Assembly (NCBI GenBank): GCA_014728215.1
Contig: WJLZ01000019.1
Location: 1-44,610 of the forward strand
Direction of reading: 5' to 3'
Source: Chitinivibrionales bacterium
GTDB taxonomy: Bacteria > Fibrobacterota > Chitinivibrionia > Chitinivibrionales > WJKA01
DNA: 44,610 nt
The notes below the pieces were generated by a model. It saw only the letters and a program-made list of their open reading frames with translations. It ran no database searches and was not told the DNA's origin. Each line of letters starts with the position of its first letter. The first letter of the stretch is position 1. Position numbers and translations under genes: made by a program. This document shows, piece after piece, positions 3,619-35,885 of this stretch.

Positions 3619-4947
3619 ATGATAAACCGAGGATGGCTTAGGGTAATTGTCGTTTCACTTTTCACCGCAATTTACAGTATTGCCGTTTCAAATACCTGCC
3701 CGTCATTCACAAAAAAAGATATCGCGGTACTCGGCAACCGCTCCGATGTGCCCGAAGGGTGGTTTATTTATGCCCCGGGAAACACTCACGGCATCTACAA
3801 ATCGCCACTCAGTCAATACGACCCCGCCCGGATCGATAACACCGGCAATGATGCCGTCAAGTGCCTGGATATCAGCCCCGATGGTGAATGGATCGTTTAC
3901 CTTCGAAGTGCATCAAACGGCGGTTTCATCTACATTATGAAACCTGATGGAAGTCAACGGACAACAGTCCCGGTCCGGGGAGTCGGTAATGGATTTCCCC
4001 GGGGCACCGGTTTTTATCACAACAGCCCTAAGGGCACAGAGATACTCTACAGCGCGAGCTGGCAGGTCCTCAGGGCCGTTGAAGTCGACCTGAGTTCCTC
4101 TCCTCCCCAATTCGGCGACCATCGAACAGTCATTGATTTCTCTGATGACCAGGGGAGTCCTCAATTTCACACCTATGGCTGGCAAGAAACGATCAGAGTT
4201 AACGGAAGTCATTTTTTCTCTCAACTGGTAACGAGCGGCGAGGTATATAAACTTGTTTTTGTTACCATTCCCAACAACGGACAGGGTATTGCGACCATGG
4301 ATAACGCCTGGCGGTTTACCGATATGCCCGACACATCCATTTACGGATGCGGCATCGCCCTGTCCTTTGAAGGCGACCGGGCGTTGTGGAATCCCGGAAG
4401 CCAGGGAGACAGAAACTGCGTTCCCAACCGGGAAAGCGGTATGGACCACAAAGGCTTTGTGGTCGCTCCCTTTATGGAAAAAGACGATCCCCAGGTGGGA
4501 ATACATGAGATTATCGATGAGCACGCGATCAGTGTCAACTGGGCGCCTCCCCAGTACCGTTACGGCTCACCCAGTCAGGTAGATTTCACCGGCTGGTCTT
4601 TTACGAACAACGGACGGTATGTTTCCGGTATATTATGGGGAGAACAGACCAACGATCGAGGGGTCTGGCTCGTCGATTGGGGTTCAAATACCTGGACACA
4701 CCTCACCGGTAATATGAATGTTGAATGCGCGGCAGTTCATTTCGGGCAATCACAACCCTATAGTGTAAAAAACCCTTTGCGATTCAATCCCTTACGCACG
4801 GCTGGAGAATATAACCGTACCACGCTCTATACAATTAGCGGAAGACGGATTCGAAAAAGCTCGTTGACACAAAAGTCAATTGCCGGGCCGGGTGTCTATA
4901 TTATCCGAAATAAAAATTATAACACCAAAGCGGTGTATGTGCGGTAG
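3619..4947 (+). CDS. exported beta-propeller-like protein with C-terminal sorting domain
   Basis: The product is a 442-residue secreted protein. A signal peptide occupies the first ~24 residues (basic MINRGWLR, then a hydrophobic core). TolB/WD40-like propeller motifs follow, for example CLDISPDGEWIVYLRS and a WSFTNNGRYVSG strand pair, which suggests a ligand-binding or scaffolding propeller. The last ~60 residues (FNPLRTAG, LYTISGRRI, GPGVYIIR, KAVYVR) match the style of type IX secretion C-terminal sorting domains, so surface anchoring or release is likely. The start at 3619 was chosen because it begins the signal peptide and follows GGAAAGG; the longer frame from 3532 adds residues that do not look like a leader. 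The enzymatic role, if any, is unknown. The following lipoprotein gene lies 79 bases downstream on the same strand. Confidence 0.78.
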   Translation: MINRGWLRVIVVSLFTAIYSIAVSNTCPSFTKKDIAVLGNRSDVPEGWFIYAPGNTHGIYKSPLSQYDPARIDNTGNDAVKCLDISPDGEWIVYLRSASNGGFIYIMKPDGSQRTTVPVRGVGNGFPRGTGFYHNSPKGTEILYSASWQVLRAVEVDLSSSPPQFGDHRTVIDFSDDQGSPQFHTYGWQETIRVNGSHFFSQLVTSGEVYKLVFVTIPNNGQGIATMDNAWRFTDMPDTSIYGCGIALSFEGDRALWNPGSQGDRNCVPNRESGMDHKGFVVAPFMEKDDPQVGIHEIIDEHAISVNWAPPQYRYGSPSQVDFTGWSFTNNGRYVSGILWGEQTNDRGVWLVDWGSNTWTHLTGNMNVECAAVHFGQSQPYSVKNPLRFNPLRTAGEYNRTTLYTISGRRIRKSSLTQKSIAGPGVYIIRNKNYNTKAVYVR

Positions 4948-5026
4948 GGTGAAAGCGATATACCGGGCTTTTCGAAGTGTTGAGCGGTGAAGGTTTAAAC
5001 TCGGAGATTAAAAGGCAGAACTCAGG

Positions 5027-5761
5027 ATGAACAATAATTACCGGATGGCACTCCTTCTTATGTGCCTGCTACTCTTTGGCTCCTGCATGAATTCTACGCA
5101 AACCCAAGGCGGGATAAGTGGAACTGTCAGTGATGCCGAAACCGGGGAGGGTATTCCTGAGGTGACGGTGAGCCTTCAACCGGGCGGTATCAGCACCACA
5201 ACCGATCGAGACGGCATATACACCATTGCAGGCCTATCTTATGGGGAGTATATCGTCTCATTTGCCGCATCGTGGTTTACGGACACAACTCTGCCTGAAA
5301 TGAATATTGAAGGCAACGACAGGATAATCGATTGTGCGCTCCATTCGATTTGTCCGGTCTATCCCCCGCGGGAAGCGGTGGATGAGTATGATCCCCGGTA
5401 CCGGGTGATCAGTCCGGAGGGCAGAGAGATTTTTTATACCGGCGATAAATGCTCTGTTCTGGTTACCTCGGAACCTCAGGGCAACGCCTATGTGGAAATA
5501 AGTGTCGACACCGGGCGTTCCTTTTATCCTCTTCCAGGCCGGATCGCCAGTTTCAATCCGAGCAAAGAGTCTTTACATACCTTTATTATTCCCGAAGAAT
5601 TCGAGAAGGTCGGGCCGGATACATGGAACAGTGAAACACAGAGTTTTGATACCATAAAAGTTTCTCTGGTATCTGATTTCTGTCTGATCCGCCTTATCGA
5701 TTACAGCAAAAAGCAGTATTACGACCTTTCCAACTGCTATTTTTCCATTCGCAAGCGTTAA
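5027..5761 (+). CDS. lipoprotein with carboxypeptidase-regulatory-like domain
   Basis: The product has 244 residues. The N-terminus MNNNYRMALLLMC...LLFGSC is a lipoprotein signal with lipidated Cys at residue 20. Residues ~28-95 form a CarboxypepD_reg-like beta-sandwich (GGISGTVSDAETGEGIPEV, TTTDRDGIYTIAGLSYGEY), a fold common in surface and TonB-linked proteins of the FCB group. The remainder, including a YRVISPEGREIFYTGD stretch, resembles an Ig-like surface domain similar in style to the GGEVW domain of the neighbouring 1145-residue esterase. An AAAGG lies about 11 bases before the ATG. It converges with the esterase gene, 12 bases separating the two stops. A cell-surface carbohydrate-related role is inferred from context only. 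Confidence 0.72.
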   Translation: MNNNYRMALLLMCLLLFGSCMNSTQTQGGISGTVSDAETGEGIPEVTVSLQPGGISTTTDRDGIYTIAGLSYGEYIVSFAASWFTDTTLPEMNIEGNDRIIDCALHSICPVYPPREAVDEYDPRYRVISPEGREIFYTGDKCSVLVTSEPQGNAYVEISVDTGRSFYPLPGRIASFNPSKESLHTFIIPEEFEKVGPDTWNSETQSFDTIKVSLVSDFCLIRLIDYSKKQYYDLSNCYFSIRKR

Positions 5762-5773
5762 GATCCGGGGCCT

Positions 5774-8700
5774 TTACCGGGCCACCATACACCGGCGTAT
5801 CATTACCCGATTATCGATTTCCAGACGGAAAAAATACATGGTTGATGCACAGGCCTGCCGCGAGTCATCGACAACATTCCATTGAATGAGTTGTATACCT
5901 TTTCGTGCTTTCCCCTGTGCCGGAGTGGCAATCAACCGGCCCCTGGCGTCGTAGACATCGAGCCGCATATTGTGGCCCTCGAGCATTGCGGGAATACCGA
6001 TCTCCAGCGTTGCTGTCGTTGTGACCGGATTAGGGTACGCCCGAAGCAGCGGTTTGCTGAGTGTTTCCCTGCCGGGAGTCGGGGTTACCGCTACCGGTGC
6101 GCAGGGATCAAGAACAATTGAGTCGGGATAATAGAAAATATTCGTATCGACAATCGCATAGGCGCCATAGTGACGAGTGGTATAATACATCGTACTGTCG
6201 ATCGAATCGATTGCCGGCTTATACATCCGTTTCAGCGTACAATCGGATGTATTGAAATGTCCGAACGCCTTCTCCAGCGTAAACCCCTGTGCTGTCGGCA
6301 GGTCGATACGGGTATAATAGCGGCCGATTGTGCCGGGGTGGTCGATGTAAAAAGCGCAATAGCTTTTCGGCTGGATCGGCAAGGATGCCGTTTCGAGGAA
6401 CGCAAAGGCAAAGAGCTTGCCTGCCAGCAGATCGGATTGAACAGTCAACGTGATCGTTAATCCATCAGGATCGCTGAAATGAAGAGTGCTGTTGGACGGA
6501 ACGATTACAAAAACCGTGTCTCCCGGCTGCACGACCCTGTTGTTGCCGATGATTTTCCAGCTCTGTTTTGTTGTATCGGCCGAGCCTTCTTTTGCAAAGA
6601 ATGTCAACGCCTGACTCCCGGCTTCGGCAATCGCCAGCGGCATGGATACTTCCTCGCCATCAAGAAGCCACCCGGTGAGTGGATCGGAGCTTGAAGCGTA
6701 ATCACGCACCCTGACATTGAAATTAAGCGTGGTATCGCGGGAAAGTTCAAGTGTCCCGCTGTTGAGTTCCGGTGGATAGATCAAAGCGATATCATCCACA
6801 TTATTCACCATCACATACAACGCTTCTTCGGCGGCAATATCCGAGGTGGTGTTATCCTTTGAACGGATACGAATCGAATACACATCTTTGAACTCATAGT
6901 CCAATGAAGCCGCGAGGTATAAACTCGTCTCCCGGATAGTGAAACGTTCGTTGTCGTCGAAGCCGTCACCATCAACCAGCGTATAGGTATAGGCATCCCC
7001 CTCCTGCCCATTTGTAGCGAGTCGTCCGATAAGACTTCCCGGAGAAAGATTTTCGTCAACGGTATAATTCGAAAGGGTAATAGTGCTCGAAGACCGCGGT
7101 TGATCGGCGATCGTAAATACTGTTTTACTCTGCCCCTGCGGTGAACCGCCGGAAGCATCACTTATTCTCACCAGGCAGTGTGATGACGCTGACGATGATG
7201 GGGTCCAGGGGTATATCCCTGTGTTTGATTTACTCGAGGAGAGTACCGACCATGTCGTCCCATTGTTGGTAGACACTTCGATTTTCACCTCTCCCACAGC
7301 GCCCCAGGAAGTCCATGCGATTTCATGCGCTTTCCCTTGTGTCCAGACCTCTCCCCCGCGGGGCGAGGTTACCCTGATCATTGAGGGGTTTTCGATGTGT
7401 ACAGGACCGGTCGTTGGTTCAAGCGGCAACTCGAGTGGAGAATTATCCCGCACCGGCCGCCTGTTGTCGGGGTATCGTCCGTACAGATACCGCACGGTAC
7501 CGGCTCCCATAACCGGGCCCGAAAGCGTCAGTCGTAGTGTGGAAGCATCGTGCCTGATCGCGGAGAGAACCGCCACAGGATGCCCGTCATCGAAAACCTC
7601 AAACCCTGTTATGCCGTTTGACGGGCTGAAATCGGAGCCTCCCCGGTGGGTTAGTGCGATATCGATTGTCCGGCGGTTATCCGAAAATTTTGCCGATGCG
7701 ATTTCCGGCCCCCGGTAAAAGGACGCATCGCCGTAGTAATATTTCACCGCGTTGCCGATCCGCTTCCCTACCGCATCGTATGTCTCAGTATCAAAGTGCC
7801 AGTCATTTCCCTCTTTGAGAGGAAAATCGGCGGTGACCGCGGCCAGAAAAATATCCTCCCCGTTATCACTATCATGCTGCGCTTTTCGAATGCCGGCAAT
7901 CGATGAATCCGAGGCATGCTGCCCTGAACCAACCCCGAGCTGACAGAGAAAGAAAGGTATACCGGCATGCAGATCGGTGCGGTAATTCGCTATGAGCGTT
8001 TGAAGGTCCTCCTGGTATTCGGTTCCCGAAAGCCGGCGTTCAGCATCGGTTTCACCCTGCCACCAGACGATAAGCTCCACCCCGCTTGCGTTGTTCGCGT
8101 TGTAAAGTGAATTGCCGTACAGAGTTGTGATATCATCGGGATCCGATGCATTCCGTTTGACCCAGTAATCTCTGGTAACATCAACATAATACCGTTCCCA
8201 GTTGAGATCGAATCTGACCGTGTCGGGTGGATACTGATGAAGGGGTGATGAGCCTTTTGATGCCGGAACAAATCCGACTGGAATATCGTATTCTTCACAG
8301 AGTACATTGGCAAGTGAAGGAACAAGGCTCGCCCCCTGTCCTTCGGCAACCCAGAATATGTCGACCTCTTCAAGCCAGACCCCACCATGCTCGTAGGGGT
8401 CTTCCAGATGCTCCCAGTCATCTTCGTTACTCCAGCACGCGGCAAGGTCATTCGCAGTCGTAAAGGGAGGGTCGCCTGCGCCGATCATATTGGACTGGCC
8501 GATACAGAGCACATTGATTCCTACCCCCCACTTATTTGTATCCTTATCTTCGGCGAGGATATCACCGGAAGAACTTCGTGACCGGACCTGTATATTATAC
8601 CATCCCCCTTGCGGTACGGTGAGTGTTCCTGAAAATTCTCCCCCGGAAAGGCTGGAGGTGAGCGTGGTCCAGTCGACAACAGCGGTGTTGGTGCCATGGT

Positions 8701-9211
8701 CGACAACCCGGGCCTGAATAGCATCAGGATCACCGGCATACTTTCCGGAAACGGTAACCTCCGCCGAATTCCCGCCGATATCCCGTTGAATCACCTGATA
8801 ATTTTCAAAGTAGGTTTTAACCCGCCATTTATTGGAGCTTTTCGTTGTTGCAATGACACTGTTGGCTTGATCATAGGAACGAACTTCAACAGCATACCAT
8901 CCCCCTTCAGGCATATCGAAGGTTCCGCTGTAGGTTCCGGAATCGCCCAAAGACGATAGTGTTGCCTGAGTCCAGGGAATTATTACGAAATCGGTATCCC
9001 AGGCTATTACCCGTGCTTCAATCGTTTCGGGCGTTTGTCCGCTCCAGGCGCCTGAAAAATCGACAGCCACGGTTGAATCACCGATTGCCCGCCGAAAACG
9101 TTCGTATGTACCGAATTCATCGATCGTCAGAGTATCCGCATAGATACAGGTGGTCACAATCATGCAAAAGAGTGCAGCGCGGCATAAAGGAAGCGATTTC
9201 AGAAGCTTCAT
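5774..9211 (-). CDS. secreted multidomain GQSN-type carbohydrate esterase with sorting domain
   Basis: The product has 1145 residues. Order: signal peptide (1-25); two ~95-residue tandem beta-domains sharing ARV..., PEGGWY/PQGGWY and TNKW endings (about 35-225); an SGNH-fold sialate O-acetylesterase-type domain (SASA/DUF303, about 232-490) with nucleophile Ser240 in GQSNM and the Asp470-x-His472 pair in DWHFD; an Ig-like domain with GGEVWTQGK; a cadherin-like repeat (SNYTVDENLSPG, LDYEF); further beta-rich sequence; and a C-terminal sorting domain (RAYPNPVTTTA, LDVYDARGRLIA, MYFFRLEI). Family members remove acetyl groups from sugars or plant polysaccharides; the real substrate is not readable. 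GGAGG precedes the ATG by 5 bases. Substrate-binding tandem modules in front of the esterase fit plant-polymer degradation by Fibrobacterota, which is inference. Confidence 0.85.
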   Translation of the reverse strand: MKLLKSLPLCRAALFCMIVTTCIYADTLTIDEFGTYERFRRAIGDSTVAVDFSGAWSGQTPETIEARVIAWDTDFVIIPWTQATLSSLGDSGTYSGTFDMPEGGWYAVEVRSYDQANSVIATTKSSNKWRVKTYFENYQVIQRDIGGNSAEVTVSGKYAGDPDAIQARVVDHGTNTAVVDWTTLTSSLSGGEFSGTLTVPQGGWYNIQVRSRSSSGDILAEDKDTNKWGVGINVLCIGQSNMIGAGDPPFTTANDLAACWSNEDDWEHLEDPYEHGGVWLEEVDIFWVAEGQGASLVPSLANVLCEEYDIPVGFVPASKGSSPLHQYPPDTVRFDLNWERYYVDVTRDYWVKRNASDPDDITTLYGNSLYNANNASGVELIVWWQGETDAERRLSGTEYQEDLQTLIANYRTDLHAGIPFFLCQLGVGSGQHASDSSIAGIRKAQHDSDNGEDIFLAAVTADFPLKEGNDWHFDTETYDAVGKRIGNAVKYYYGDASFYRGPEIASAKFSDNRRTIDIALTHRGGSDFSPSNGITGFEVFDDGHPVAVLSAIRHDASTLRLTLSGPVMGAGTVRYLYGRYPDNRRPVRDNSPLELPLEPTTGPVHIENPSMIRVTSPRGGEVWTQGKAHEIAWTSWGAVGEVKIEVSTNNGTTWSVLSSSKSNTGIYPWTPSSSASSHCLVRISDASGGSPQGQSKTVFTIADQPRSSSTITLSNYTVDENLSPGSLIGRLATNGQEGDAYTYTLVDGDGFDDNERFTIRETSLYLAASLDYEFKDVYSIRIRSKDNTTSDIAAEEALYVMVNNVDDIALIYPPELNSGTLELSRDTTLNFNVRVRDYASSSDPLTGWLLDGEEVSMPLAIAEAGSQALTFFAKEGSADTTKQSWKIIGNNRVVQPGDTVFVIVPSNSTLHFSDPDGLTITLTVQSDLLAGKLFAFAFLETASLPIQPKSYCAFYIDHPGTIGRYYTRIDLPTAQGFTLEKAFGHFNTSDCTLKRMYKPAIDSIDSTMYYTTRHYGAYAIVDTNIFYYPDSIVLDPCAPVAVTPTPGRETLSKPLLRAYPNPVTTTATLEIGIPAMLEGHNMRLDVYDARGRLIATPAQGKARKGIQLIQWNVVDDSRQACASTMYFFRLEIDNRVMIRRCMVAR

Positions 9212-9397
9212 GCATACCTCCGTGGTAACTGGAGCAGGGAATGTTTTGAGCCTTTATGATCAAGTAATTTTTTTCAGGGGGTGTTTCGCCTAATGCCTGA
9301 TATTGCTTACGTATGAGGCCTATGAGAAATATAGCCATTTGCGGGCGCAAAAGCAAGGTTCTTTGCAGGGTATACGTGCCGTCTTCAGTCGCTTACA

Positions 9398-9991
9398 TTA
9401 AAAAGCGAACCCGATCGATAATTCGCCGTCAATGCCGGCAATTATTTTGGTTATCGATTCGATAGTTTCGGCTTCCTCCGGCTTGCTTTCACCCCAGTCG
9501 AATTCTGCTATGGCGGGAAATCCGTATCCGATTCTGAGTACCAGATTAAATGTCTCGCCGAAAATCCATCTGCGCCCCCAGTTTGCGCCGAATTTTAAAT
9601 ATTGAATATCAATAGTATATGTTTCGGATGTATTCGTATTCTGAACTTTTGCATCACTTTGTTCATAATACACAAAGGGTCCCCAGAATGGAGAACTTAA
9701 TCCGTTATGAGTAATTTTAGTATGATAGTGATGACGATAATGAAGAGCTGCGCTATAACCGCCGGAATTCGCACCAAAAACATATCCCCCCTGCACCATC
9801 ACTCCATGTTTTCCGCCAAATAAATGCTCATAATTAGCATTCAAAGAGCCGAATGCGATTGAGAGAGGATTGAAATTTACTGCATTTTCAGGCATTGGCG
9901 TATCAGAGGGTATCGATTGTCCGCATGCAGTGCCCATCCCAAAAAAGACATTGATAAGTAAAACAAAAAACACATGTCGCTTGTTAAACAT
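9398..9991 (-). CDS. small outer-membrane beta-barrel-like protein
   Basis: The product has 197 residues, with a signal peptide (MFNKRHVFFVLLINVFFG...ACGQS) followed by alternating hydrophobic/polar strands: ALHYRHHYH, FWGPFVYYEQ, IQYLKFGANWGRRW, LVLRIGYGFPA. It ends in Phe (ELSIGFAF), as many outer-membrane barrel proteins do. It resembles DUF3575-type or other 8-strand porin-like families, but the exact family is uncertain. AAAGGAGG lies a few bases before the start. It is transcribed divergently from the NTF2-like lipoprotein gene at 10226. A Cys at position 23 leaves a lipoprotein possible, though the barrel pattern argues against it. Confidence 0.68.
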   Translation of the reverse strand: MFNKRHVFFVLLINVFFGMGTACGQSIPSDTPMPENAVNFNPLSIAFGSLNANYEHLFGGKHGVMVQGGYVFGANSGGYSAALHYRHHYHTKITHNGLSSPFWGPFVYYEQSDAKVQNTNTSETYTIDIQYLKFGANWGRRWIFGETFNLVLRIGYGFPAIAEFDWGESKPEEAETIESITKIIAGIDGELSIGFAF

Positions 9992-10225
9992 ATATCAGCT
10001 CCTCCTTTGCAAATTAACTTTTTAGATTTGCCGCAAAATAAATACAAATACACTCAATTATGGATGTAAATATGGTTTATGCCGGCACAAGAAATGTTAA
10101 AAAAATTAAGCATGGCTGATTTTAAATATTTTCCTCTTGACACAAAAACTCCTTCAATAGTAAACTTCAATTCTATTCCAATGTTTACACGGGCATTTTT
10201 TTAACTTTACCCTTAAGGAGGTTGT

Positions 10226-10621
10226 ATGAAAAAATCATCCATCACCGCATTTATCAAGTGTGCGATGCTCACTTCCGCAAGCCTGCTGATTTTTAGCGGA
10301 TGCAGCAGTTCGTCATCGGGCCCGGAGAACGTTGTTGAAAGCTTTTTTAAGGCGGCAAAGACAAAGGATTTCGAAAAGGCCGTTGAATGCTATGCCCCAT
10401 CAATACTGAAAGAGCCCGGATCAAAGGAAAAACTCACCGGTTACCTGAAAAGCAGTGTCGAGCAGAAAAAGGGAGTGAAATCATTTTCTGTCACCGGTTC
10501 GACAATAAATGAAAATAAAGCTGAAGTTTCTTACTCGGTAACCTACGGCAACGGTGATACGGAGGAAAGCGAAAATACCTGCGTTAAGGAAGACGGGAAA
10601 TGGTATTTGACACTTAATTAA
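10226..10621 (+). CDS. NTF2-like (DUF4878-type) lipoprotein
   Basis: The product has 131 residues. It has a lipoprotein signal with the lipobox LIFSGC (Cys at residue 27), a Ser-rich linker, then a single NTF2-like domain: ENVVESFFKAAKTKDFEKAVECYAP near the front, and a strand pair TINENKAEVSYSVTYGNGD with a final CVKEDGKWYLTLN. That layout matches DUF4878 lipoproteins, whose function is mostly unknown. A strong Shine-Dalgarno AAGGAGG (10215-10221) is 4 bases before the ATG. A hairpin at 10629-10656 may end the transcript. Confidence 0.8.
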   Translation: MKKSSITAFIKCAMLTSASLLIFSGCSSSSSGPENVVESFFKAAKTKDFEKAVECYAPSILKEPGSKEKLTGYLKSSVEQKKGVKSFSVTGSTINENKAEVSYSVTYGNGDTEESENTCVKEDGKWYLTLN

Positions 10622-12054: not shown

Positions 12055-13023
12055 TTAAAGTCTGCTTTTGCCGTTCCGGAAACGTTCTTCCCGGCTCCCG
12101 CGATAGGAAAGAAATTTTTTGGTGTCGATCAGCCACGAGGCTTTCCGGAAACACAAATCCCGGTCGTGATTAAACCGGTGGAATGCCCGGCTTACCAGCT
12201 CTTTCAGTTGCCACTCATGAATTCGAAGCGGATCGTAGCCTTCGGTTTTGGCCAGAAAAAAGAGACTTTCGAAATTCAGATCGTGCTTCTGAGAAACATT
12301 TTTAATTTCGATATACCGGGCGCCGGTATTGATACCGTAGATAAGCTTGGGGAGGTCACAATACCGTTCACGCCATCCGTTCAAGGCGGCGCAGGAATCG
12401 AAAAGACTGATTACCATTCCCTTTTTTTCACCAAAATGAATGTTTTCATCATTTTTTCCATCATCGGAATCAAGATAATTATCATAAACGAAGAGGACAC
12501 GGATCGTATGATCGGTTTGAAGGACTGCGATCTTTTTCCTTGCCCTGTGTAAAAGTGCCTTTAAACGCTCGACTTCACTTTCAAGCACATTTTGCTCAGC
12601 AAAACGTTCTTTGAGCTGAGCCTTGACTCGTTCTATATTATCGCCAAGACTGTCAAGATCGGCCAGACGGCGTTTTTCTTCTGCTTTATAGTACTCTACC
12701 TTATCCTCCACCGAATCCAGGATAGTGTTTCTTGTTTTCATTTTACCCCGGACATTGTCTATAAAATCATGAATACGGGCCATTTCCTGTTGAAGGCTGT
12801 CGTATTCTTCTTTACGCCGGTGTAAAGCATCCGAAGAATGCGATATTTTCCCTTTGTACGCTTCGAGTTCTTTTGAAAGCCGGCTCATTTTTGCCTGCTG
12901 ATCGGCAAGTGTTTTTTTCTGTTGCCTTGTCACACCAAATTGCACAACCAGGAGGCCAATCGCCAGCATAAGGCATACAAAGATTATTACCGGAAAGATA
13001 GTCTTTAGTTTTGTCTTTTCCAT
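12055..13023 (-). CDS. membrane-anchored coiled-coil protein of unknown function
   Basis: The product has 322 residues: a short basic N-terminus (MEKTKLK), one transmembrane segment at about 9-31, then a long coiled coil (about 35-170) rich in Lys, Glu and Leu with a leucine/charge heptad pattern and Asp-Ser pairs (YDSLQQE, LDSVEDK, LDSLGDN). A C-terminal globular part follows (about 170-310), with IRVLFVYDNYLDSDDGK and a basic tail. The topology suggests an inner-membrane protein with a periplasmic coil. It is not recognised as a known family. Its start lies 22 bases after the stop of the Xer recombinase, with AAGGA upstream, so the two are probably co-transcribed. The same Asp-Ser coil style recurs in the 1068-residue protein at 21046-24252. 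Confidence 0.65.
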   Translation of the reverse strand: MEKTKLKTIFPVIIFVCLMLAIGLLVVQFGVTRQQKKTLADQQAKMSRLSKELEAYKGKISHSSDALHRRKEEYDSLQQEMARIHDFIDNVRGKMKTRNTILDSVEDKVEYYKAEEKRRLADLDSLGDNIERVKAQLKERFAEQNVLESEVERLKALLHRARKKIAVLQTDHTIRVLFVYDNYLDSDDGKNDENIHFGEKKGMVISLFDSCAALNGWRERYCDLPKLIYGINTGARYIEIKNVSQKHDLNFESLFFLAKTEGYDPLRIHEWQLKELVSRAFHRFNHDRDLCFRKASWLIDTKKFLSYRGSREERFRNGKSRL

Positions 13024-21045: not shown

Positions 21046-24000
21046 TCAATCACAGGGAACTTTTATTACTTTCGATGGATTTTTTCCTGGCACAAAGATC
21101 ATGGTTTTTACACAGCTCTGATTTCCTCTCACAAAATTCATCTGATGAGTGCCTGAAAACACCATCAAATCACCCGAATTAGTTCGGCCGATCAGCTTGC
21201 CGTCCATGTAGACCGTTGCTCCGGGAGGTATGGATGAAATAAATATCGTCCCATCCTCGCCATCTCCCTGCGGTACCTGGGTATACTGTTTTTTCGGGGA
21301 AACCGAGATACTTTTTTTCTGTTTTTCCTTTTTTGAAGGTGCAGCAATAGCTTTCTGCTCCATTTTTGCGCTGGTTGTGAGAGGAGCTGGAGCTAAAGGG
21401 GTGTTCTTTTTAGCCACAGGCGTTGATTTGGCCGCGGTTTTCACTGAAGGCTTCTGGGAGACAGCAGGCGGCTTTTTATCCAGAACAGCCGCAAGTTTCG
21501 CCACTTCCTCCCTTTTCTTTTCGATAAGATCTTCTTTCGATGTAATTATCGTATGAGAAGTTTTGGCTGCCATAAACGCCTGTTTGGCCGCCTCGATACT
21601 GTCCTGAGCTATCTTTTCCATTTCTGCCGTCAGGGTTTCAGCCTTCTTTTTTTGTGCTGCAATTGTGCTGTCGATACGGGCTGTTGCGCTGCTCAATGAC
21701 AGCTCCATCGTCTGTTTTTCTTCATACAGTGCAATACTGTCGGCAATAAGCTTTTCTCTTTTTCCCAGAAGGGCGGCAAGTTCTTTTTCCTTTTGGGCAA
21801 TCAGTGAGTCCTGGCGGGAAATTTTCAGATGCGATTCCTCCGCGGATTGCAGGGTCGCAGCCTGTGCTTCACTCATCTTTTCTTTGTTGTTTTCGAGCAA
21901 ATCGTCATAAGCGGTTATTTCTTTTTCCACCGAATCTATCGTTTGCCGCTTAGTACGGTACGTATACACCATTTTTTCGATTTTGGCTTTCTCTTCTTTT
22001 TGCTGCTCAACACTGTCGCTTACGGCATTGTCCCGGTCAGCAACGAGTTTATCAAGCTCCTTTTCCTTTTTCTCAAGTTGCGCAGAAAGCTTTTTAATTT
22101 CCTGTTCGATCAGTGTCCGGTTTGAAGCCAGTTTCTTCTCCAGTGCGTCGAGATCCTTTTTGTTACCTTTAACCGCACGAGTGATAGCCATGATCTTCTC
22201 ATGGGATTTCTTTGCCATTTCCTGTGCTGCTTCTTCCTCTTCGGATACTTTATCCGCAGCTTTGGTACGACGGGTCTCTGTTTCGCTTATCTCTTTTTCT
22301 TTCAGCACAACAAGGCTGTCCAGCTCATCAACTTTGCTGCGGGCACGAAGAGCCAGTTCTCCGATTTTCCGTTCCACCTCGGCGCTGTCATTCCCGAGCA
22401 TCCGAATTGTCTGCTCAACAGCTTCGAGTTCAACAGAATGAGTATCAACACCAGCGGTCTGCTTCACAATTTTCTTGTGTGCCGAAGCAAGCGATTTTTC
22501 CAGTTCCTTATGTTCGAGTTCGTTTTCATTTATGCTGTTTTCCTTTTTCCGGGTCAGCTTCCGGATTTTTTCTTCATGAGCATCGCTGGCGGCTAGTTTT
22601 TCGTTTATCCTGTCAGAGAGTTTTTTCAGTTTAGATTTCTTCTCTGTTTCTATCGCGATACTGTCCTGCTTTATGGCATTCCTTTTGTTCTCAATCCCGG
22701 CCATCGCTTTTTGGGCATCACCGATCATCTTTTCGATCCGCTCACTTGTCTTTTGAGAAACATCATTTTCGGCAGCCCCTTTTTTCTGTAGAGCCACACT
22801 GTCGACATGAATCTTTTCCCTTTTAAGTTCCAGTTCGACGATCTCCTTTTCCAGCGAAGTAACAACATTATCCTGCGCACTCACCAGCATGACAACACTA
22901 TCTCTTTCCTCTTTGTGATTCGAGACAAGATTCGTGCTGTCCCGACGGATTCTGCCGGATTTTTCTTCCATCAATTCTCTTTTCAAACCGGTGGATTCAA
23001 CAAGACTGTCCAGAGCGATTCGCTTTTGTTCCAGTGTCCATCCCTCCCACGTCTTCTCCCGTGCTGCAATATCCGGATTTTTTGCAAGGTTTTCTTTTTC
23101 GCCGAGCAGTAATCCGAGTTCCCGTTGTCTGTTAGTGAATTCATCCGACCGCGCCGCCTTCTCCTCATCACTGAGGTTCATCAACTCGGCCAATTGCCGT
23201 TTGGTCCAGTCGACTTCCATATCTTTGCGTATCTTATCCTGATGCAGTTTCAATTGTTCGTATTCGGATTCGGCAGCGACAAGAAGCGAATCGGCACGCC
23301 TGATTTGCGCCTTCATCTCCCCCGACTCCTGCTCCTGCTTTTTGACAACCGCGGCACTGTCCGAACTAATTGCCGCGCCTTTCTCCTTCTGTGAAGCAAG
23401 CTCCTTTTTCTTTTCCGCTATTTTTATGTCAATGCTCTTCGCTTCGGTTTTGTATCCTTTTAACCTCTCTTGAAGAGAACTGCCGGCAGTAACACTCTTT
23501 TCTTCAACCTCTTTTTTCCGTCGCTCAAGCCCCCGGACCTCCAGGTCTTTCCTCGCATATACGCTGTCGATTTTTTCTCTTTTGGTCACGAGGCTGTCGA
23601 TCCGGCGTTTCATGCCTCCAACAAGTGTCAGGCTGTCGGCACGTAATTGCTCCACTCCTGAATCCGCTTCGGATTGTTTTTTTTCTTCAGCGTGTATCAG
23701 TGAGTCCAGTTCTTTGCGGCTCTTTTCCCCCGATTCCAGAATCACCGTCATTTTTTCCTGCAGAGCGATGCTGTCTTTTTGAAGAGTATCAAGACGGTGA
23801 ATATAAATTTCGAGGTTTTGCTGCAACGAATGACGGGATTTCCGGGCGGCATCGATTTTTTGGGCCAGGTCCGCAAGCTTATCATTCTTCTTTGCTTCGG
23901 CCTGTTCAAGGTTTTTTCTCGCCTCTTTTTTGTTGGAAAGTAATGATTTCAGCTCTGCGGCCTGTGCTTGTGCAGTACTGTCTATATGCTCTTTTTCTTT

Positions 24001-24252
24001 TTTTAAAACAGCGATTTTTTCTGATGCACGGCCTTGCCCGGCAATGCTGTCATCAACCGCCTCTTCCTGCAGGGCCAGCAGAGAGTCTCTCGCCATCTCA
24101 TTCTCTGTTATGTCTTGTTGTAAGTTCTGCTCTGTTGCATTCAGATCATCGAGTCTGCTCTGTGCAAAAAGAGGTACATTTAAGATGATAGTGCATAAGC
24201 AAGCACTATTAAAAATTGCAGATACAAGAAATGAAACCTGCTTTCTGTTCAT
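21046..24252 (-). CDS. giant exported coiled-coil protein with C-terminal PEGA domain
   Basis: The product has 1068 residues. The signal peptide (about 1-31) ends near LNVPLFAQS. Residues ~35-920 are an almost uninterrupted coiled coil, extremely rich in Lys, Glu, Ala and Ser, carrying at least 24 Asp-Ser pairs such as KDSIALQEK, IDSLVTKRE and RQDSLIAQKE; these make an irregular repeat. Residues ~930-1000 are a Lys/Pro/Ala-rich linker (VAKKNTPLAPAP). The last ~70 residues form a PEGA domain (IFISSIPPGATVYMDGKLIG), a fold tied to surface-layer or cell-wall binding. A fibrous periplasmic or surface protein is the best guess. It converges with the small membrane gene. No close family is recognised beyond the PEGA domain. 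Confidence 0.8.
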   Translation of the reverse strand: MNRKQVSFLVSAIFNSACLCTIILNVPLFAQSRLDDLNATEQNLQQDITENEMARDSLLALQEEAVDDSIAGQGRASEKIAVLKKEKEHIDSTAQAQAAELKSLLSNKKEARKNLEQAEAKKNDKLADLAQKIDAARKSRHSLQQNLEIYIHRLDTLQKDSIALQEKMTVILESGEKSRKELDSLIHAEEKKQSEADSGVEQLRADSLTLVGGMKRRIDSLVTKREKIDSVYARKDLEVRGLERRKKEVEEKSVTAGSSLQERLKGYKTEAKSIDIKIAEKKKELASQKEKGAAISSDSAAVVKKQEQESGEMKAQIRRADSLLVAAESEYEQLKLHQDKIRKDMEVDWTKRQLAELMNLSDEEKAARSDEFTNRQRELGLLLGEKENLAKNPDIAAREKTWEGWTLEQKRIALDSLVESTGLKRELMEEKSGRIRRDSTNLVSNHKEERDSVVMLVSAQDNVVTSLEKEIVELELKREKIHVDSVALQKKGAAENDVSQKTSERIEKMIGDAQKAMAGIENKRNAIKQDSIAIETEKKSKLKKLSDRINEKLAASDAHEEKIRKLTRKKENSINENELEHKELEKSLASAHKKIVKQTAGVDTHSVELEAVEQTIRMLGNDSAEVERKIGELALRARSKVDELDSLVVLKEKEISETETRRTKAADKVSEEEEAAQEMAKKSHEKIMAITRAVKGNKKDLDALEKKLASNRTLIEQEIKKLSAQLEKKEKELDKLVADRDNAVSDSVEQQKEEKAKIEKMVYTYRTKRQTIDSVEKEITAYDDLLENNKEKMSEAQAATLQSAEESHLKISRQDSLIAQKEKELAALLGKREKLIADSIALYEEKQTMELSLSSATARIDSTIAAQKKKAETLTAEMEKIAQDSIEAAKQAFMAAKTSHTIITSKEDLIEKKREEVAKLAAVLDKKPPAVSQKPSVKTAAKSTPVAKKNTPLAPAPLTTSAKMEQKAIAAPSKKEKQKKSISVSPKKQYTQVPQGDGEDGTIFISSIPPGATVYMDGKLIGRTNSGDLMVFSGTHQMNFVRGNQSCVKTMIFVPGKNPSKVIKVPCD

Positions 24253-24702
24253 TGAATCTCCTGACGCGCTTTAAGATTCTGCATCATAGACAACTGCATA
24301 TCTTTTCGGCACCGACCCGACACTCTTTGTCACGATAGATGTGTAAGTCTAAGCCACAATAGATGTTGCCCTGAGGCTGGGTATCCTCATGTTAGCAGAT
24401 TATTATAATAAATTAAGAATTGGGCAGTATTTCATACCACATTTATTTGATCTTTTTTAAATCCTGTAGCATAGCGAGTGGGCAGATGAAAACCGACACC
24501 GGTGAAATGCAATCGCACAGCTCGATTTCTTTGGTGAGAAGTCCTGATTCTTCACAGCCGAAAAGAACGACGACAGTGGCCCGACCGGCACAAAAATGAT
24601 TTGCAGGTAAACACAGCCGTCCTTTATTACTCCATTCACCCTTCACAACAGTATTTTTACTCTTCTGGGATATCGACATTTAAAATCATCAATGAGAATG
24701 AA
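24253..24702. other. 450-base gap upstream of the tRNA-dihydrouridine synthase
   Basis: The region separates two divergent genes. It contains a partial direct repeat (CACGATAGATGTGTAAG near 24330 and CACAATAGATGTTG near 24356) and AT-rich DNA near 24400-24420. A minus-strand ORF of 78 codons (24443-24679) contains a KGRLCLPANHF stretch vaguely like AbrB/MraZ proteins, but lacks a Shine-Dalgarno and is not called. No clear promoter was identified. Confidence 0.35.
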
Positions 24703-32875: not shown

Positions 32876-33875
32876 TTTTTTTGATATCCCGGATCAATTT
32901 TTCGGCGTCCTTTCTTATTTCCTGCACCCGGGGATCATCCCACGAGTCTGCTTCCTTAAGAATTTCTCTGCACACCTGCATCGATTCGTCGTACTTTTTG
33001 TCGAGAAAAAGCATATGCGCCTGTTTGCTTTTTCCCGATAACACACTCCGTCCTGCATTAGGAATCGAACTGTATAATTCGCATAACCGCCGATAAACCT
33101 GTGCAGCTTTGCTGTATTGCTCCTGCATATGAAAATATTTCGCCTTGCTCCAGAGGATATATCTGCTGGTGGGATAGTTAGTCTCAAGTGATCGTATCAG
33201 TTTCCAGCTCTTGCCATACATTTTTTCGGTTATATAAATATCCACCAGGACAAGATCGGCTCCTAATGAAGATATCTGAGAATTATCACTTGCATTCTCA
33301 AGTTGTTTAATACCCTCTTCCTTTGATCCCGGGAACCAGAACAACACCCACCATAACTGTTTTCGTAATTCACCTTTGGCATAGTCGTAAAGTCCCAGGT
33401 AAAGATCGGCGTCACTGTTATCCGGATCCATTTCTTTGGCTTCTTTAAGGTCTCGAATCGCTTCCAGCCCAACATGGACACCCGCTCCGTATTCTTTATT
33501 ACGAAGGCAGTAGGCAGAATAGGTTGCTTTGGTAAAGCCGCGTAGAGTTTTACTGTATGAGGTTGTATCCTTTTTCTGCTCCATTTCCGAAATCAACTTC
33601 AACGTTTTATTGTAAGATTGCAAAAATCCGGCAGAATCGGTCCGGCGATCAAGATCGAGGTCCTGTAGACCGATACCGTACATATGCAAAAAAGGACCCA
33701 GAGGGTCATCGGGAGCATGGTTTGACATAGAATCGATCTGGGCAAAAGCCTTTTTGAACCGGCAGGCTATCAGTTTCTCGATAACGGTGTTGGCGCACTT
33801 CTTTTTCGATTCCGGAAGGGTGAATCCGTAGCTCAGTGTTATTCCGAGCAGCAGGAGTATCAAAAATTTATTCAT
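32862..33875 (-). CDS. exported TPR-repeat protein in the prenyl-lipid cluster
   Basis: The product has 337 residues. A signal peptide (MNKFLILLLLGITLSYG) is followed by alpha-helical repeats of TPR type, for example YGAGVHVGLEAIRDLKEAKEMDPDNSDADLYLGLYDYAKGE split over two helices, and a later YSKAAQVYRRLCELYSSIPNAG. The ATG at 33875 overlaps the UbiA stop by 8 bases; the longer frame from 33965 is mostly inside UbiA and not a likely start. The end overlaps the ferredoxin start by 14 bases. It sits between the prenyltransferases and the ferredoxin, so it may be a periplasmic partner of this set, but no direct function can be read. Confidence 0.78.
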   Translation of the reverse strand: MNKFLILLLLGITLSYGFTLPESKKKCANTVIEKLIACRFKKAFAQIDSMSNHAPDDPLGPFLHMYGIGLQDLDLDRRTDSAGFLQSYNKTLKLISEMEQKKDTTSYSKTLRGFTKATYSAYCLRNKEYGAGVHVGLEAIRDLKEAKEMDPDNSDADLYLGLYDYAKGELRKQLWWVLFWFPGSKEEGIKQLENASDNSQISSLGADLVLVDIYITEKMYGKSWKLIRSLETNYPTSRYILWSKAKYFHMQEQYSKAAQVYRRLCELYSSIPNAGRSVLSGKSKQAHMLFLDKKYDESMQVCREILKEADSWDDPRVQEIRKDAEKLIRDIKKNDKS

Positions 33876-34845
33876 TGATCGAATCCGCGGGTAGCAGTGA
33901 TGGATACCGTACTTTATGTCGAATAGAAAAATACAGCCTGGTAGCAATAAAAATCGTAATACCACTCAAACCAAAGACAGGGAAGAGTACTCCGGCAGCG
34001 GCCATCATAAGCCCACCGTTGACTTTATAGGTAGCTTCCGTAACCGCCCGAGTCTTTACAAAAAAATAATAAATGGAAAGAGGCAAACTGATTGCAGTAA
34101 TAATAAGAACAAACAGATCCTTCACAAAAAATGCCGAGACTCCTGCTCCTGCAAGCAAAAGTGTTGCTAAAAGATGTGCTCTATGGTCTCCAAGGTATAC
34201 CGCCGTTGTGATTTTTCCACATTCTTTATCGCCCGGGATATCCGAAAGTGTCGAGCTTATGGAACCCGAACACATAAGGAGAAAATAGGGAAAGCAATTA
34301 ATGAGGTAGTCCTCGAAGACTAACTGATTATTCGGCAAAGCAAGTATCCACCCCACCCCAAAGGCGACAACGCCATATCCGAGGGCATTGCTGAGAAAAT
34401 CGGCCAGAGGTCTTCCTGAAAAATAAAAAGGGCGAAAACTGTACACTATTCCGAGAATGCCTGCGAGAAGGGAAAAGTAGACCAGGCGGGGGTCTCCCCA
34501 GAAAAAAATAATCGCTATCGATAGTCCCCAGAAAACCGATGCAATAAGGAATGCGTCCTGTTTTGAAAAACCGGTATTAATTAAGAGTGGAAAACCGTCA
34601 TTCTCCCTGTCGACTTCATAATCTGCAATCTGATTGAAAACAAATACCGCAGCCACCGAAAAGGAAAAGACAATCATCCAGAAAAAGCTGCTGAAATGTG
34701 CCGACTGCCACAAGGATGATAATGGTACAGAGCGATAATAAAAAAAGCATCGACAATACCCCAGAACCGAAAATCCCCATACGGTGACCAGGACTACCGG
34801 TCGGGTGATAAAGAGCGCATCGATAAGTTTTACCCCGAAATTCAT
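33868..34845 (-). CDS. UbiA-family prenyltransferase (second of a tandem pair)
   Basis: The product has 325 residues and about 8-9 transmembrane helices. The Mg/diphosphate-binding motif is NQIADYEVD (Asn71, Asp75, Asp79) and the second Asp-rich motif is DIPGDKECGK. UbiA enzymes attach prenyl chains to aromatic rings or lipid precursors in the inner membrane. The NQIAD-type motif resembles homogentisate/chlorophyll-synthase-like and archaeal DGGGP-synthase-like branches more than MenA, but this is a visual judgement. Start 34845 was chosen because MNFGVKLIDALFITRPV is the expected N-terminus; the longer frame from 35010 overlaps the preceding gene. It starts 23 bases after the other UbiA gene and overlaps the TPR gene by 8 bases. 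Confidence 0.85.
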   Translation of the reverse strand: MNFGVKLIDALFITRPVVLVTVWGFSVLGYCRCFFYYRSVPLSSLWQSAHFSSFFWMIVFSFSVAAVFVFNQIADYEVDRENDGFPLLINTGFSKQDAFLIASVFWGLSIAIIFFWGDPRLVYFSLLAGILGIVYSFRPFYFSGRPLADFLSNALGYGVVAFGVGWILALPNNQLVFEDYLINCFPYFLLMCSGSISSTLSDIPGDKECGKITTAVYLGDHRAHLLATLLLAGAGVSAFFVKDLFVLIITAISLPLSIYYFFVKTRAVTEATYKVNGGLMMAAAGVLFPVFGLSGITIFIATRLYFSIRHKVRYPSLLPADSINE

Positions 34846-34868
34846 ATGATCATCTGTTCGGAGGAGTG

Positions 34869-35885
34869 CTATTGTGCCTTGAATGTAGGATAGTTGATAC
34901 CCATCCTGAGATGGTAATAAAGCTTGCTTCCAAAGAATGTTACAACAATAAGAGCTCCGTATAACGGAATATAAAATACCACAAAAGCCGACAATAAAAA
35001 TACCGGCCATTTAAAGGCCTTGAAAGCCATGCTTCTGTTGGTGGAAACAATGAGATATATAAACAACACCAGACTTACTACCGCAGGAACAATCATTACC
35101 CATGGATTATACTGTAGAAAGAAACAAAAGACAAGGGCAAGAGCACAGAAAACAGTTGCGGCAATTGCGGTCTTTTTTTCTCCATAGGCAACACAAAATG
35201 TTTTTTTACCGGTGGCTTTATCTCCCGATGCATCGGGGATAGTAGTGGTGACAAAGATTGCCGCATTCGCAAAACCGGCGGAAAAGGACGCTAAAAGCCC
35301 TTGTATCCAGAGGTTAGAATTAATGGGTGGTATGGATGGAATCTTTACAACAAGATTCTGATCGTATTGCGCGGCATACCATCCAACAAGATAGGTCAAC
35401 ACACCATGTCCCAAAAAGCACGCTATCGTCCCTCCCCATGCCCTGTTTTTCAGGCTTGCCGGCGGGAGATCGTATAAATAGCCGAGTACGAGGCCGGCGG
35501 CAAATAACAGAAACATTATCAGATCAAAATAAAAGGACACAAACAAACCGGTCAGCGCGCAAACAGCGGCCAGGACCCACGCGGTTCGGACTGACACTAA
35601 TCCGTAGGGAAGAATAAACAGTTTTTTATTGATTCTGTCACTTTCGATATCTGCAATCTGATTAACCACATATATCCAGGCAACAACGAGTGAAAATCCG
35701 AAAAGGGCCAGCCAGAGTCGGGCTTCTGAATAAAGAAGAGAACCGTTACCGGAAAAAATCCCACCAAGATGGGCATGCTCATTTCCGGTAATCCACCCCA
35801 GAATCAGTATTGTCCATACAGGTGCAAGTAAGGGAATTCGTAGCAGGAAAAAACAATCGAGAAGTTTAGCAAAAACTGCTTTCAA
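34869..35885 (-). CDS. UbiA-family prenyltransferase (first of a tandem pair)
   Basis: The product has 338 residues and about 8-9 membrane helices. The first Asp-rich motif is NQIADIESDRIN (Asn75, Asp79, Asp83) and the second is DASGDKATGKK. The start codon is TTG at 35885, with AAAGGA about 9 bases upstream, and no ATG alternative gives the conserved N-terminal helix. It is clearly paralogous in layout with the next gene (33868-34845), yet the two differ through most of their length, so this is an old duplication or two distinct branches. The pair could add prenyl chains in two successive steps. It begins 147 bases after the PHP gene. Confidence 0.86.
   Translation of the reverse strand: MKAVFAKLLDCFFLLRIPLLAPVWTILILGWITGNEHAHLGGIFSGNGSLLYSEARLWLALFGFSLVVAWIYVVNQIADIESDRINKKLFILPYGLVSVRTAWVLAAVCALTGLFVSFYFDLIMFLLFAAGLVLGYLYDLPPASLKNRAWGGTIACFLGHGVLTYLVGWYAAQYDQNLVVKIPSIPPINSNLWIQGLLASFSAGFANAAIFVTTTIPDASGDKATGKKTFCVAYGEKKTAIAATVFCALALVFCFFLQYNPWVMIVPAVVSLVLFIYLIVSTNRSMAFKAFKWPVFLLSAFVVFYIPLYGALIVVTFFGSKLYYHLRMGINYPTFKAQ

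Follow-up and report, generated by a model that had tools for sequence, protein, structure and literature searches.

Asp-Ser pairs on a 23-residue lattice in an exported coiled-coil protein of Chitinivibrionales: candidate sites for O-glycosylation

What could a bacterium gain from studding a very long coiled coil with Asp-Ser (DS) pairs? The question is raised by a gene of a Chitinivibrionales bacterium (Fibrobacterota; GCA_014728215.1) within a window of 44,610 nucleotides, the whole stretch of DNA analyzed here (contig WJLZ01000019.1, positions 1 to 44,610). The first-pass annotation had reported a frame of 1068 residues at 21046-24252, with a signal peptide, at least 24 DS pairs along a coiled coil and a C-terminal PEGA domain. 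We recovered this gene on the minus strand, where it reads from an ATG start through 1068 residues without a stop, whereas the plus-strand frame at 21046-24252 holds stops; a Shine-Dalgarno-like AGGAG (24258-24262) closely precedes the ATG. The gene is apparently a single-gene unit, both flanking ORFs being on the plus strand. All features below are on the minus strand. The N terminus (residues 1-30, 24163..24252) is signal-peptide-like and ends in PLFA/QSR, with cleavage placed after PLFA by eye, and on the same by-eye basis the signal peptide reported earlier is supported and the relatives have hydrophobic leaders too. The N-terminal arm (residues 31-358, 23179..24162), delimited by an AlphaFold2 (AF2) helix at 29-358 and by composition, has no proline from residue 41 to 358. 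A tip (residues 359-406, 23035..23178), placed from AF2 and from a matching region aligned in 11 members, contains short helices at 362-367, 369-390 and 393-401 in the model and no DS pair. The C-terminal arm (residues 407-891, 21580..23034, from AF2) has a low-confidence break at about 589-625 and exceeds the N-terminal arm by about 157 residues. It is followed by a basic, Pro/Ala/Lys-rich linker, mostly of low confidence in AF2 (residues 892-999, 21256..21579), and by the PEGA domain with its two Cys residues (residues 1000-1068, 21049..21255), delimited by Pfam, AF2 and an alignment of the tails. The PEGA assignment was confirmed by PF08308 over residues 1001-1038, at 27.0 bits against a gathering cut-off of 20.8, and PEGA was the sole Pfam domain listed at E up to 1, with no SLH domain. 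The PEGA tail had no solved relative among PDB sequences at E up to 1, and a profile of the tip matched just Syn-F4-Link there (E 0.05).

The 24 DS pairs of the window protein lie between residues 56 and 884. Across 20,000 shuffles of residues 31-930, the mean number of DS pairs was 4.7 (SD 2.0, maximum 15), and DS is the dipeptide with the greatest over-representation in this region; D and S at separations of 2 to 14 residues occur 2 to 6 times each. The pairs are also regularly spaced. Thirty-six pairwise distances between them equal 23, 46, 69, 92 or 115 residues, compared with a mean of 3.1 and a maximum of 16 in 5,000 random placements. Chance or composition as the source of the DS pairs is thus ruled out on both counts, and both the abundance claimed by the first-pass annotation and the periodicity for which it had proposed a check are borne out. 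Nineteen of the 24 pairs fall into three blocks, each in one phase modulo 23: block 1 (23287..24051) with DS at 68, 91, 160, 183, 206, 229, 298 and 321; block 2 (22315..23010) with DS at 415, 438, 484, 530, 622 and 645; and block 3 (21598..22017) with DS at 746, 815, 838, 861 and 884. The remaining pairs are off phase, at 56, 197 and 219 for block 1, 451 for block 2 and 773 for block 3.

The protein has relatives in its order. A tip profile found its 11 input members and two new ones, with 12 and 18 DS pairs, in 12 of 167 genomes, all belonging to the window's order (Chitinivibrionales-type Fibrobacterota), in which 40 genomes were searched. The same profile had no match in a genome of the same genus (G001, 77% complete), and a whole-protein search of genome contigs confirmed no relatives. 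A DNA pattern for DS was loose, with matches in 164 of 167 genomes; of five new loci picked by eye among the matches listed, four (L041, L042, L043, L045) gave members and one (L044) gave none by the filter used. Each of the 14 sequence pieces, counting the window protein, has between 4 and 25 DS pairs, so that the search for homologs suggested by the first-pass annotation showed the pairs to be retained; this DS content is not independent in G006, G026, G032 and G030, whose pieces were found by the DS pattern, and the remaining members came from protein or tip-profile searches. Spacing was counted in 13 pieces (13 copies of the gene, drawn from 12 genomes of a single order; G009b, which has no tip, was left out). 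Of 809 DS distances measured within an arm, 264 divide exactly by 23, with 35 expected. Every other modulus from 15 to 22 and from 24 to 34 is below expectation, and the residues 20, 13, 9, 12 and 10 modulo 23 stand out as well. Relative to the tip, phase 11-12 accounts for 54 of 109 N-arm pairs and phase 13-14 for 30 of 98 C-arm pairs, the others lying elsewhere. The lattice is fainter in some members: the periodogram peaks of G004 and G010 do not reach the 95% null level, although their lag counts exceed random, and in G009b the lattice is not significant.

Is the lattice simply a by-product of how the coil is built? Judged from the sequences, the coil unit is a degenerate one of 46 residues and 13 turns, equivalent to five heptads and a hendecad. 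When the DS pairs are masked, lag 46 ranks among the three strongest of 140 lags in seven of seven sequences and first in five of them, and the top hydrophobicity period is 3.519-3.554 in all seven, close to 46/13 (3.538). On whether the arms vary in length by whole 46-residue units, the lengths, which depend on the by-eye cleavage site, show a concentration of 0.77 at 42, 0.80 at 44 and 0.75 at 46. A unit that stays repetitive with DS masked would suit the idea that the pairs are functionless leftovers of the tandem duplication of a 46-residue unit. However, the DS columns outdo the hydrophobic core of the unit in conservation (D in 53/77 and 59/75, S in 52/77 and 58/75, against L in 32/63 for the best other column). 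Moreover, G004 and G010, which are 49% identical over 797 residues, share 15 of the 19 DS positions listed for each relative to the tip, and we regard such leftovers as very improbable. Because the lattice blocks behind these columns (152 sites, 105 with DS) were drawn around DS phases already seen, neither the 105/152 proportion nor the column conservation counts as an independent test.

The residue that follows each pair points to another origin. Among 208 DS pairs from 14 pieces representing 13 genes, each trimmed by 40 residues at the N terminus and 130 at the C terminus apart from the two G009 pieces, the next residue is L, I, V, T, A, S or M in 185. For comparison, these residues come next in 293 of 567 cases when S has neither D nor E before it, in 184 of 338 after D plus another residue and in 15 of 47 after E-S. 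In the window protein, 23 of 24 pairs are followed by such a hydrophobic or small residue (phi), and D[ST]phi occurs 24 times with 3.9 expected. In the passages of the literature that we draw on, about 90% of mapped O-glycosylation sites of Bacteroidota are described as D-S/T followed by L/I/V/T/A/S, in noncytoplasmic proteins only (PMC12871550). The first-pass remark that the DS pattern was unlike any recognized coil feature therefore needs amending, as the pattern matches this sequon; the tripeptide and its favored third residues are the same in the general O-glycosylation system of Bacteroidota, as far as the passages on the system and on the P. gingivalis glycoproteome describe it (PMC12871550, PMC8729774), with Ala ranking higher as third residue in the coil. 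According to the same passages, this is the sole sequence-motif-driven bacterial O-glycosylation known so far, its oligosaccharyltransferase is undiscovered, and a comparable motif enrichment was noted in Fibrobacterota and proposed as future work (PMC12871550). The coil differs from the Bacteroidota case in its Fibrobacterota host, in its use of Ser, not Thr, and in having candidate sites mostly on a 23-residue coiled-coil lattice. In those passages, Bacteroidota glycosites prefer Ser only slightly over Thr, whereas the coil shows no excess of D-T (20 seen, 27.2 expected), a point against the sequon reading.

The use of Ser and not Thr also agrees with a purely structural reading, in which DS would be a coil device for supercoiling, helix capping or arm-arm contacts at fixed registers, and not a glycosylation site. 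The register lock to 23 and 46 residues, with two alternating flanking patterns, fits such a device as well. In one register Ser is on the outer face, at position f; in the other, displaced by 23 residues and roughly half a helical turn, it is at core position a of a weak, Ala-rich core, which likewise favors such a device. At that position a glycan could be housed only if the coil opened locally, and this weighs against the sequon reading. Against this reading, the hydrophobic residue at +2 accompanies DS in both registers (at g and b), which packing does not ask for. At lattice sites, A, I, L, M, V or T comes next in 95 of 105 cases with DS and in 23 of 47 without (Fisher p = 5e-8), a comparison less affected by the post hoc drawing of the blocks. 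Several of the DS positions shared by G004 and G010 are off the main phases, indicating that DS is kept off the lattice too. A structural role alone appears unlikely to us, also in view of the rest of the proteome.

There, too, the sequon is enriched. Over 798 kb of this genome, with the coil protein left out, the observed/expected ratio of D[ST]phi was 2.19 for exported-like proteins (145) and 1.18 for cytosol-like ones (301), as sorted by a crude rule; bootstrapping (200 resamplings) placed the exported/cytosol ratio of ratios at 1.54-2.16. A genome from another family of the phylum (G056) gave 2.17 and 1.23, and the E. coli K-12 control 0.97 and 0.89. D[ST] before other residues was below 1 in all six protein sets; the excess sits in exported-like proteins and depends on the third residue. 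This general enrichment of the tripeptide speaks against a purely structural role, and it is shared with the Bacteroidota system as the available passages portray it. For D-T-phi the ratios in this genome were 2.24 and 1.32, the cytosol-like set not being at 1 either. As D-T-phi is enriched in exported-like proteins and D-T is unenriched in the coil, something besides the sequon favors Ser there. We also considered DS as a habit of every protein, and rejected it: 214 non-coil proteins in the first loci had DS at 1.24 times expectation.

What shape would carry these sites? The first-pass annotation had proposed a very long periplasmic or surface rod. Probable export by the leader and a mostly coiled-coil make-up agree with it, but prediction bends the coil back on itself into an antiparallel hairpin around the shared tip, giving a stalk closer to 49 nm in length than to the 126 nm expected of a single straight helix. 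AF2 modeled residues 208-558 as two long helices plus a small helical tip (pLDDT 92.9, pTM 0.55); pTM for the full length was 0.28, and the packing of the long coil is uncertain in these models, built on alignments of 7 and 11 sequences. Antiparallel hairpins were the best structural matches of the fragment. The highest Z was that of PrgA of Enterococcus (6z9l; VIA Z 15.0, 322 of 351 model residues, rmsd 7.8), at 7% identity over the structural alignment, and PrgA was not in the best 50 of the Foldseek list for this fragment. The arm of B. subtilis SMC (5nnv_D) matched with Z 13.1 (252 aligned, rmsd 5.5); the comparison tool cautions that long helices often score Z values below about 13. PrgA is a Gram-positive wall surface protein with a long coiled-coil stalk and its own adhesin domain. 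The arms of SMC, Rad50 and MukB and the cytoplasmic hairpins of chemoreceptors have likewise an antiparallel coiled-coil hairpin geometry, but these are cytoplasmic, and the window protein has no detected ATPase head or receptor domain. Membership in the SMC family was rejected (TIGR02168 of NCBIfam, 15.3 bits against a cut-off of 567.35; Pfam listing PEGA alone at E up to 1). Omp-alpha of Thermotoga is an exported envelope spacer of about 50 nm that carries an SLH domain and is anchored in the membrane by its C terminus; on these general features, the idea of an exported coil spacer of about 50 nm is common to both, and membership by SLH was rejected for want of a match in Pfam at E up to 1. 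A parallel dimer or trimer, forming a straight coil of up to about 126 nm that does not fold on itself, would agree with the coil-like spectrum near 3.5 and with the unequal arms, since part of the longer C-terminal arm must pair with another chain or stay single. We consider such an oligomer doubtful, since the region between the arms aligns in 11 of 11 members tried, the tip is modeled as a turn of three short helices, and both arms align to known hairpins in the model. It concerns shape only and would be compatible with the sequon reading of DS.

We thus favor, at a probability of roughly 0.62, an exported hairpin stalk, periplasmic or on the surface, in which the DS pairs are candidate acceptor sites for O-glycans of the Bacteroidota type. 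After removal of the signal peptide, the chain would form a long antiparallel coiled-coil hairpin of degenerate 46-residue units, with the small helical tip at its far end and the flexible basic linker and PEGA at its base. Each sequon would consist of D, a sugar-bearing S and a hydrophobic or small residue. Since most pairs are fixed every 23 residues in each arm, the O-glycans, attached within the periplasm, would come at steps of about 34 Angstrom. Such glycans may keep the stalk soluble, stiff, protease-resistant and apart from its neighbors, while the PEGA end would tie it to the cell envelope, putatively as a wall anchor, and the tip would touch a partner. Glycosylated cellulose-binding proteins of Fibrobacter succinogenes feature in the older literature. 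None of the passages we draw on reports a glycan at a D-S/T site in any Fibrobacterota protein, and no published test of motif-driven O-glycosylation in Fibrobacterota was found by title or abstract. Nor did a search that most subscription journals fall outside yield literature on PEGA with a periplasmic coiled coil, a 46-residue coil repeat or a periplasmic hendecad or stutter. The sequon is known; the protein family is new. More broadly, it is tentatively conceivable, at somewhat short of even odds, that Fibrobacterota share the sequon-driven O-glycosylation of Bacteroidota and that this order evolved a dedicated carrier stalk, its 46-residue unit adapted to display a glycan every 23 residues like a ruler for sugars. 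The remark on the Fibrobacterota motif now gains a testable case in a single protein with 23 DS-phi sequons, most of which follow a lattice. If glycosylated, the protein would support dating the system before the Fibrobacterota-Bacteroidota split, offer a multi-site assay substrate for finding the missing oligosaccharyltransferase and represent an envelope stalk of a new kind. Without glycosylation, the 23/46-residue DS lattice would be a coiled-coil design in need of explanation.

As for genomic context, in the loci compared no neighbor family recurred next to more than one or two of the gene copies, and an operon partner that might indicate the function was set aside on this ground. PEGA-tailed proteins also occur by M23 peptidases in the same order (L002/L038 and L039), with tails 54 and 56% identical to the window PEGA, but in shorter frames (626 and 615 codons) and without the Cys pair, which is present in five of five coil-linked PEGA tails and in neither of the two M23-linked paralogs of the aligned set. 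The L002 protein has a STAS match near its N terminus, unlike the window protein. In G004, the coil gene itself adjoins M23+LysM and SLT+LysM genes.

The open reading frame at 21046-24252 (minus strand) encodes 1068 residues that begin with a signal-peptide-like segment. Between about residues 31 and 891 the chain is predicted to be helical and has hardly any proline, and behind a basic Pro/Ala/Lys-rich linker it ends in a C-terminal PEGA domain (27.0 bits against a cut-off of 20.8). The combination of signal peptide, coil and terminal PEGA domain proposed in the first-pass annotation was borne out. The gene is probably a single-gene unit, since the flanking ORFs, one of 144 aa with no Pfam match and the other a dihydrouridine synthase, are on the plus strand. 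The recurrence of Asp-Ser (DS) pairs that had drawn attention to the protein is also real, with 24 present against 4.7 in shuffled sequences (20,000 shuffles, maximum 15). Their spacing is periodic at 23 residues and its multiples: 36 pairs of DS sites lie 23, 46, 69, 92 or 115 residues apart, whereas random placement gave a mean of 3.1 and at most 16. Single phases hold 8 DS over residues 68 to 321, 6 over residues 415 to 645 and 5 over residues 746 to 884, while 5 of the 24 are off-phase.

The homologs in Fibrobacterota that the annotation had suggested looking for were found. A protein search of 60 genomes returned one near-full-length relative, in genome G002; its remaining matches covered the PEGA tail or a portion of the coil, and all came from the window's order. 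One more distant PEGA match is from a Desulfobulbus MAG. Extended with a loose DNA pattern (three DS at 23) and a profile of the tip, the region between the two arms of the predicted hairpin, the family comprises 13 gene copies. They occur in 12 of the 167 genomes of the phylum, and all 12 belong to the window's order, which is represented by 40 genomes. Four of the 15 DNA-pattern matches in the window's own genome fell inside the window gene, and every other contig had at most one. Five copies have a PEGA C-terminus (the window protein and those of genomes G002, G004, G010 and G009). By eye, the other eight end in a small helical domain, which precedes PEGA in the four PEGA-tailed relatives and is absent from the window protein. 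The relative from genome G006 (locus L041, about 4170-5172) appears by eye to switch in its C-terminal part to a different Ala/Lys/Glu-rich repeat and to carry two copies of this domain.

The 23-residue spacing recurred when 13 homologous pieces were pooled. With positions taken relative to the common tip and distances of up to 280 residues counted within arms, 264 of 809 were exact multiples of 23 (35 expected), and all other moduli from 15 to 34 fell below expectation. Further prominent residues modulo 23, namely 20 (59), 13 (56), 9 (44), 12 (39) and 10 (38), are block shifts and a second DS set about half a step off. Measured from the tip, the family members have their phase in common only in part (11-12 in 54 of 109 N-arm DS, 13-14 in 30 of 98 C-arm DS). 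G004 and G010 had a weaker lattice, and that of the short piece G009b did not reach significance. The G010 and G004 proteins (loci L034 and L033; 49% identity over 797 residues) have 15 DS positions in common out of the 19 listed in each, and several of these lie outside the main 23 phases.

When DS was masked in the seven sequences tested, lag 46 ranked in the top three of 140 lags for each of them and first for five, and the strongest hydrophobicity period was 3.519-3.554 in all seven, near 46/13. The DS lattice rides on this predicted 46-residue coiled-coil unit, whose profile has 13 core positions, one stutter and two DS sites spaced 23. In unit blocks that we drew around the DS phases, the DS columns were the most conserved, above every core position. 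Asp and Ser occupy e and f, on the outer face, in the first register, and g and a in the second, where Ser points toward a weak, Ala-rich core. This core-facing register, together with Thr not being favoured in the coil (20 D-T against 27.2 expected), means that DS may also act structurally, by itself or alongside glycosylation; we consider a purely structural role unlikely.

Passages of PMC12871550 describe Bacteroidota O-glycans on Ser or Thr after Asp and before a hydrophobic or small residue (D[ST]phi), with L/I/V/T/A/S making up about 90% of mapped sites and the modified proteins noncytoplasmic, and remark on similar motif enrichment for Fibrobacterota. The residue following DS in the family (n = 208) was L in 72, A in 38, I in 32, V in 17, T in 10, S in 10 and M in 6, or one of these seven in 185, against 293 of 567 after Ser without a preceding acid, 184 of 338 after Asp followed by another residue, 12 of 20 after D-T and 15 of 47 after E-S. 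At equal lattice positions, the next residue was A/I/L/M/V/T at 95 of the 105 sites that carry DS and at 23 of the 47 that do not (p = 5e-8), which ties the third residue to DS and not to the coil. A second coiled coil in the window (12055-13023, minus strand; 322 aa, apparent N-terminal membrane anchor) carries DS-phi at residues 75, 103 and 124.

Across 798 kb of the window's genome, a crude rule gave 145 exported-like and 301 cytosol-like proteins, with 120 others and the window coil excluded. Observed over expected D[ST]phi was 2.19 (487/222.8) in the exported-like and 1.18 (430/365.1) in the cytosol-like set. The respective controls were 0.87 and 0.87 for D[ST] plus another residue, 0.85 and 1.12 for E[ST]phi, and 0.99 and 0.95 for the reversed order. 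D-T-phi alone reached 2.24 and 1.32, although Thr is not favoured in the coil. Genome G056, from another family of the phylum and presumably of the Fibrobacter side, was sampled over 400 kb (46 exported-like and 187 cytosol-like proteins) and gave 2.17 and 1.23 for D[ST]phi and 0.88 and 1.30 for E[ST]phi; Escherichia coli K-12 (300 kb; 37 and 120 proteins) gave 0.97 and 0.89 for D[ST]phi. These counts fit sequon-driven modification of exported Fibrobacterota proteins, as suspected in the same passages of PMC12871550. Other D[ST]phi-rich exported-like proteins of the window's genome, at loci L101 (5811-9800, minus; 37 sites), L083 (1-3537, minus; 34) and L109 (2047-4404, plus; 23), compare with 24 sites in the window protein and are good candidates for glycoprotein work.

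AF2 modeled the full-length protein poorly as a whole, with a pLDDT of 63.2 and a pTM of 0.28, but confidently near residues 321-430, and residues 208-558 (11 sequences) with 92.9 and 0.55, as three short helices linking two long ones. We infer antiparallel arm packing in this model from its structural matches, whose aligned ranges lie on both sides of the tip, and not from its coordinates. The top matches include PrgA (Z 15.0, 322 aligned, rmsd 7.8), chemoreceptor hairpins and the arms of SMC, Rad50 and MukB; further rows are unrelated long-helix proteins, and PrgA was absent from the best 50 Foldseek matches of the 208-558 fragment. The tip profile matched nothing among PDB sequences but Syn-F4-Link (E 0.05). 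In place of the very long rod first envisaged, a hairpin with a paired arm of about 49 nm is predicted.

We favour, with a probability of roughly 0.6, a periplasmic or surface hairpin stalk O-glycosylated at DS-phi, the glycan itself being putative. The protein would be exported via its signal peptide, modified in the periplasm and folded with acceptor sites mostly at 23-residue steps along each arm; PEGA may hold the base of the stalk, which may present the helical tip. A length of 49 nm is long for a periplasm, so the stalk would lie along the envelope or be outside. A periplasmic place would be favoured by the example of Porphyromonas gingivalis: according to PMC8729774, glycosylation there affects the majority of proteins that face the periplasm but not the abundant ones at the surface. 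The paper also describes, however, heavily glycosylated S-layer proteins in Tannerella forsythia.

Two genomes of the order have PEGA paralogs next to M23 peptidases. At locus L038 (G000:C133), a STAS-match protein with a C-terminal PEGA tail (8734-10611, minus) directly adjoins an M23 peptidase that carries a Csd3_N2 domain (7313-8758, minus). G002 (L039) has this pair too, and matches to PEGA-tailed frames of about the same length occur in many genomes of the order. Elsewhere in the window, two overlapping multi-pass membrane ORFs of 380 and 338 aa (33868-35885, minus) look by eye like tandem UbiA-type prenyltransferases.
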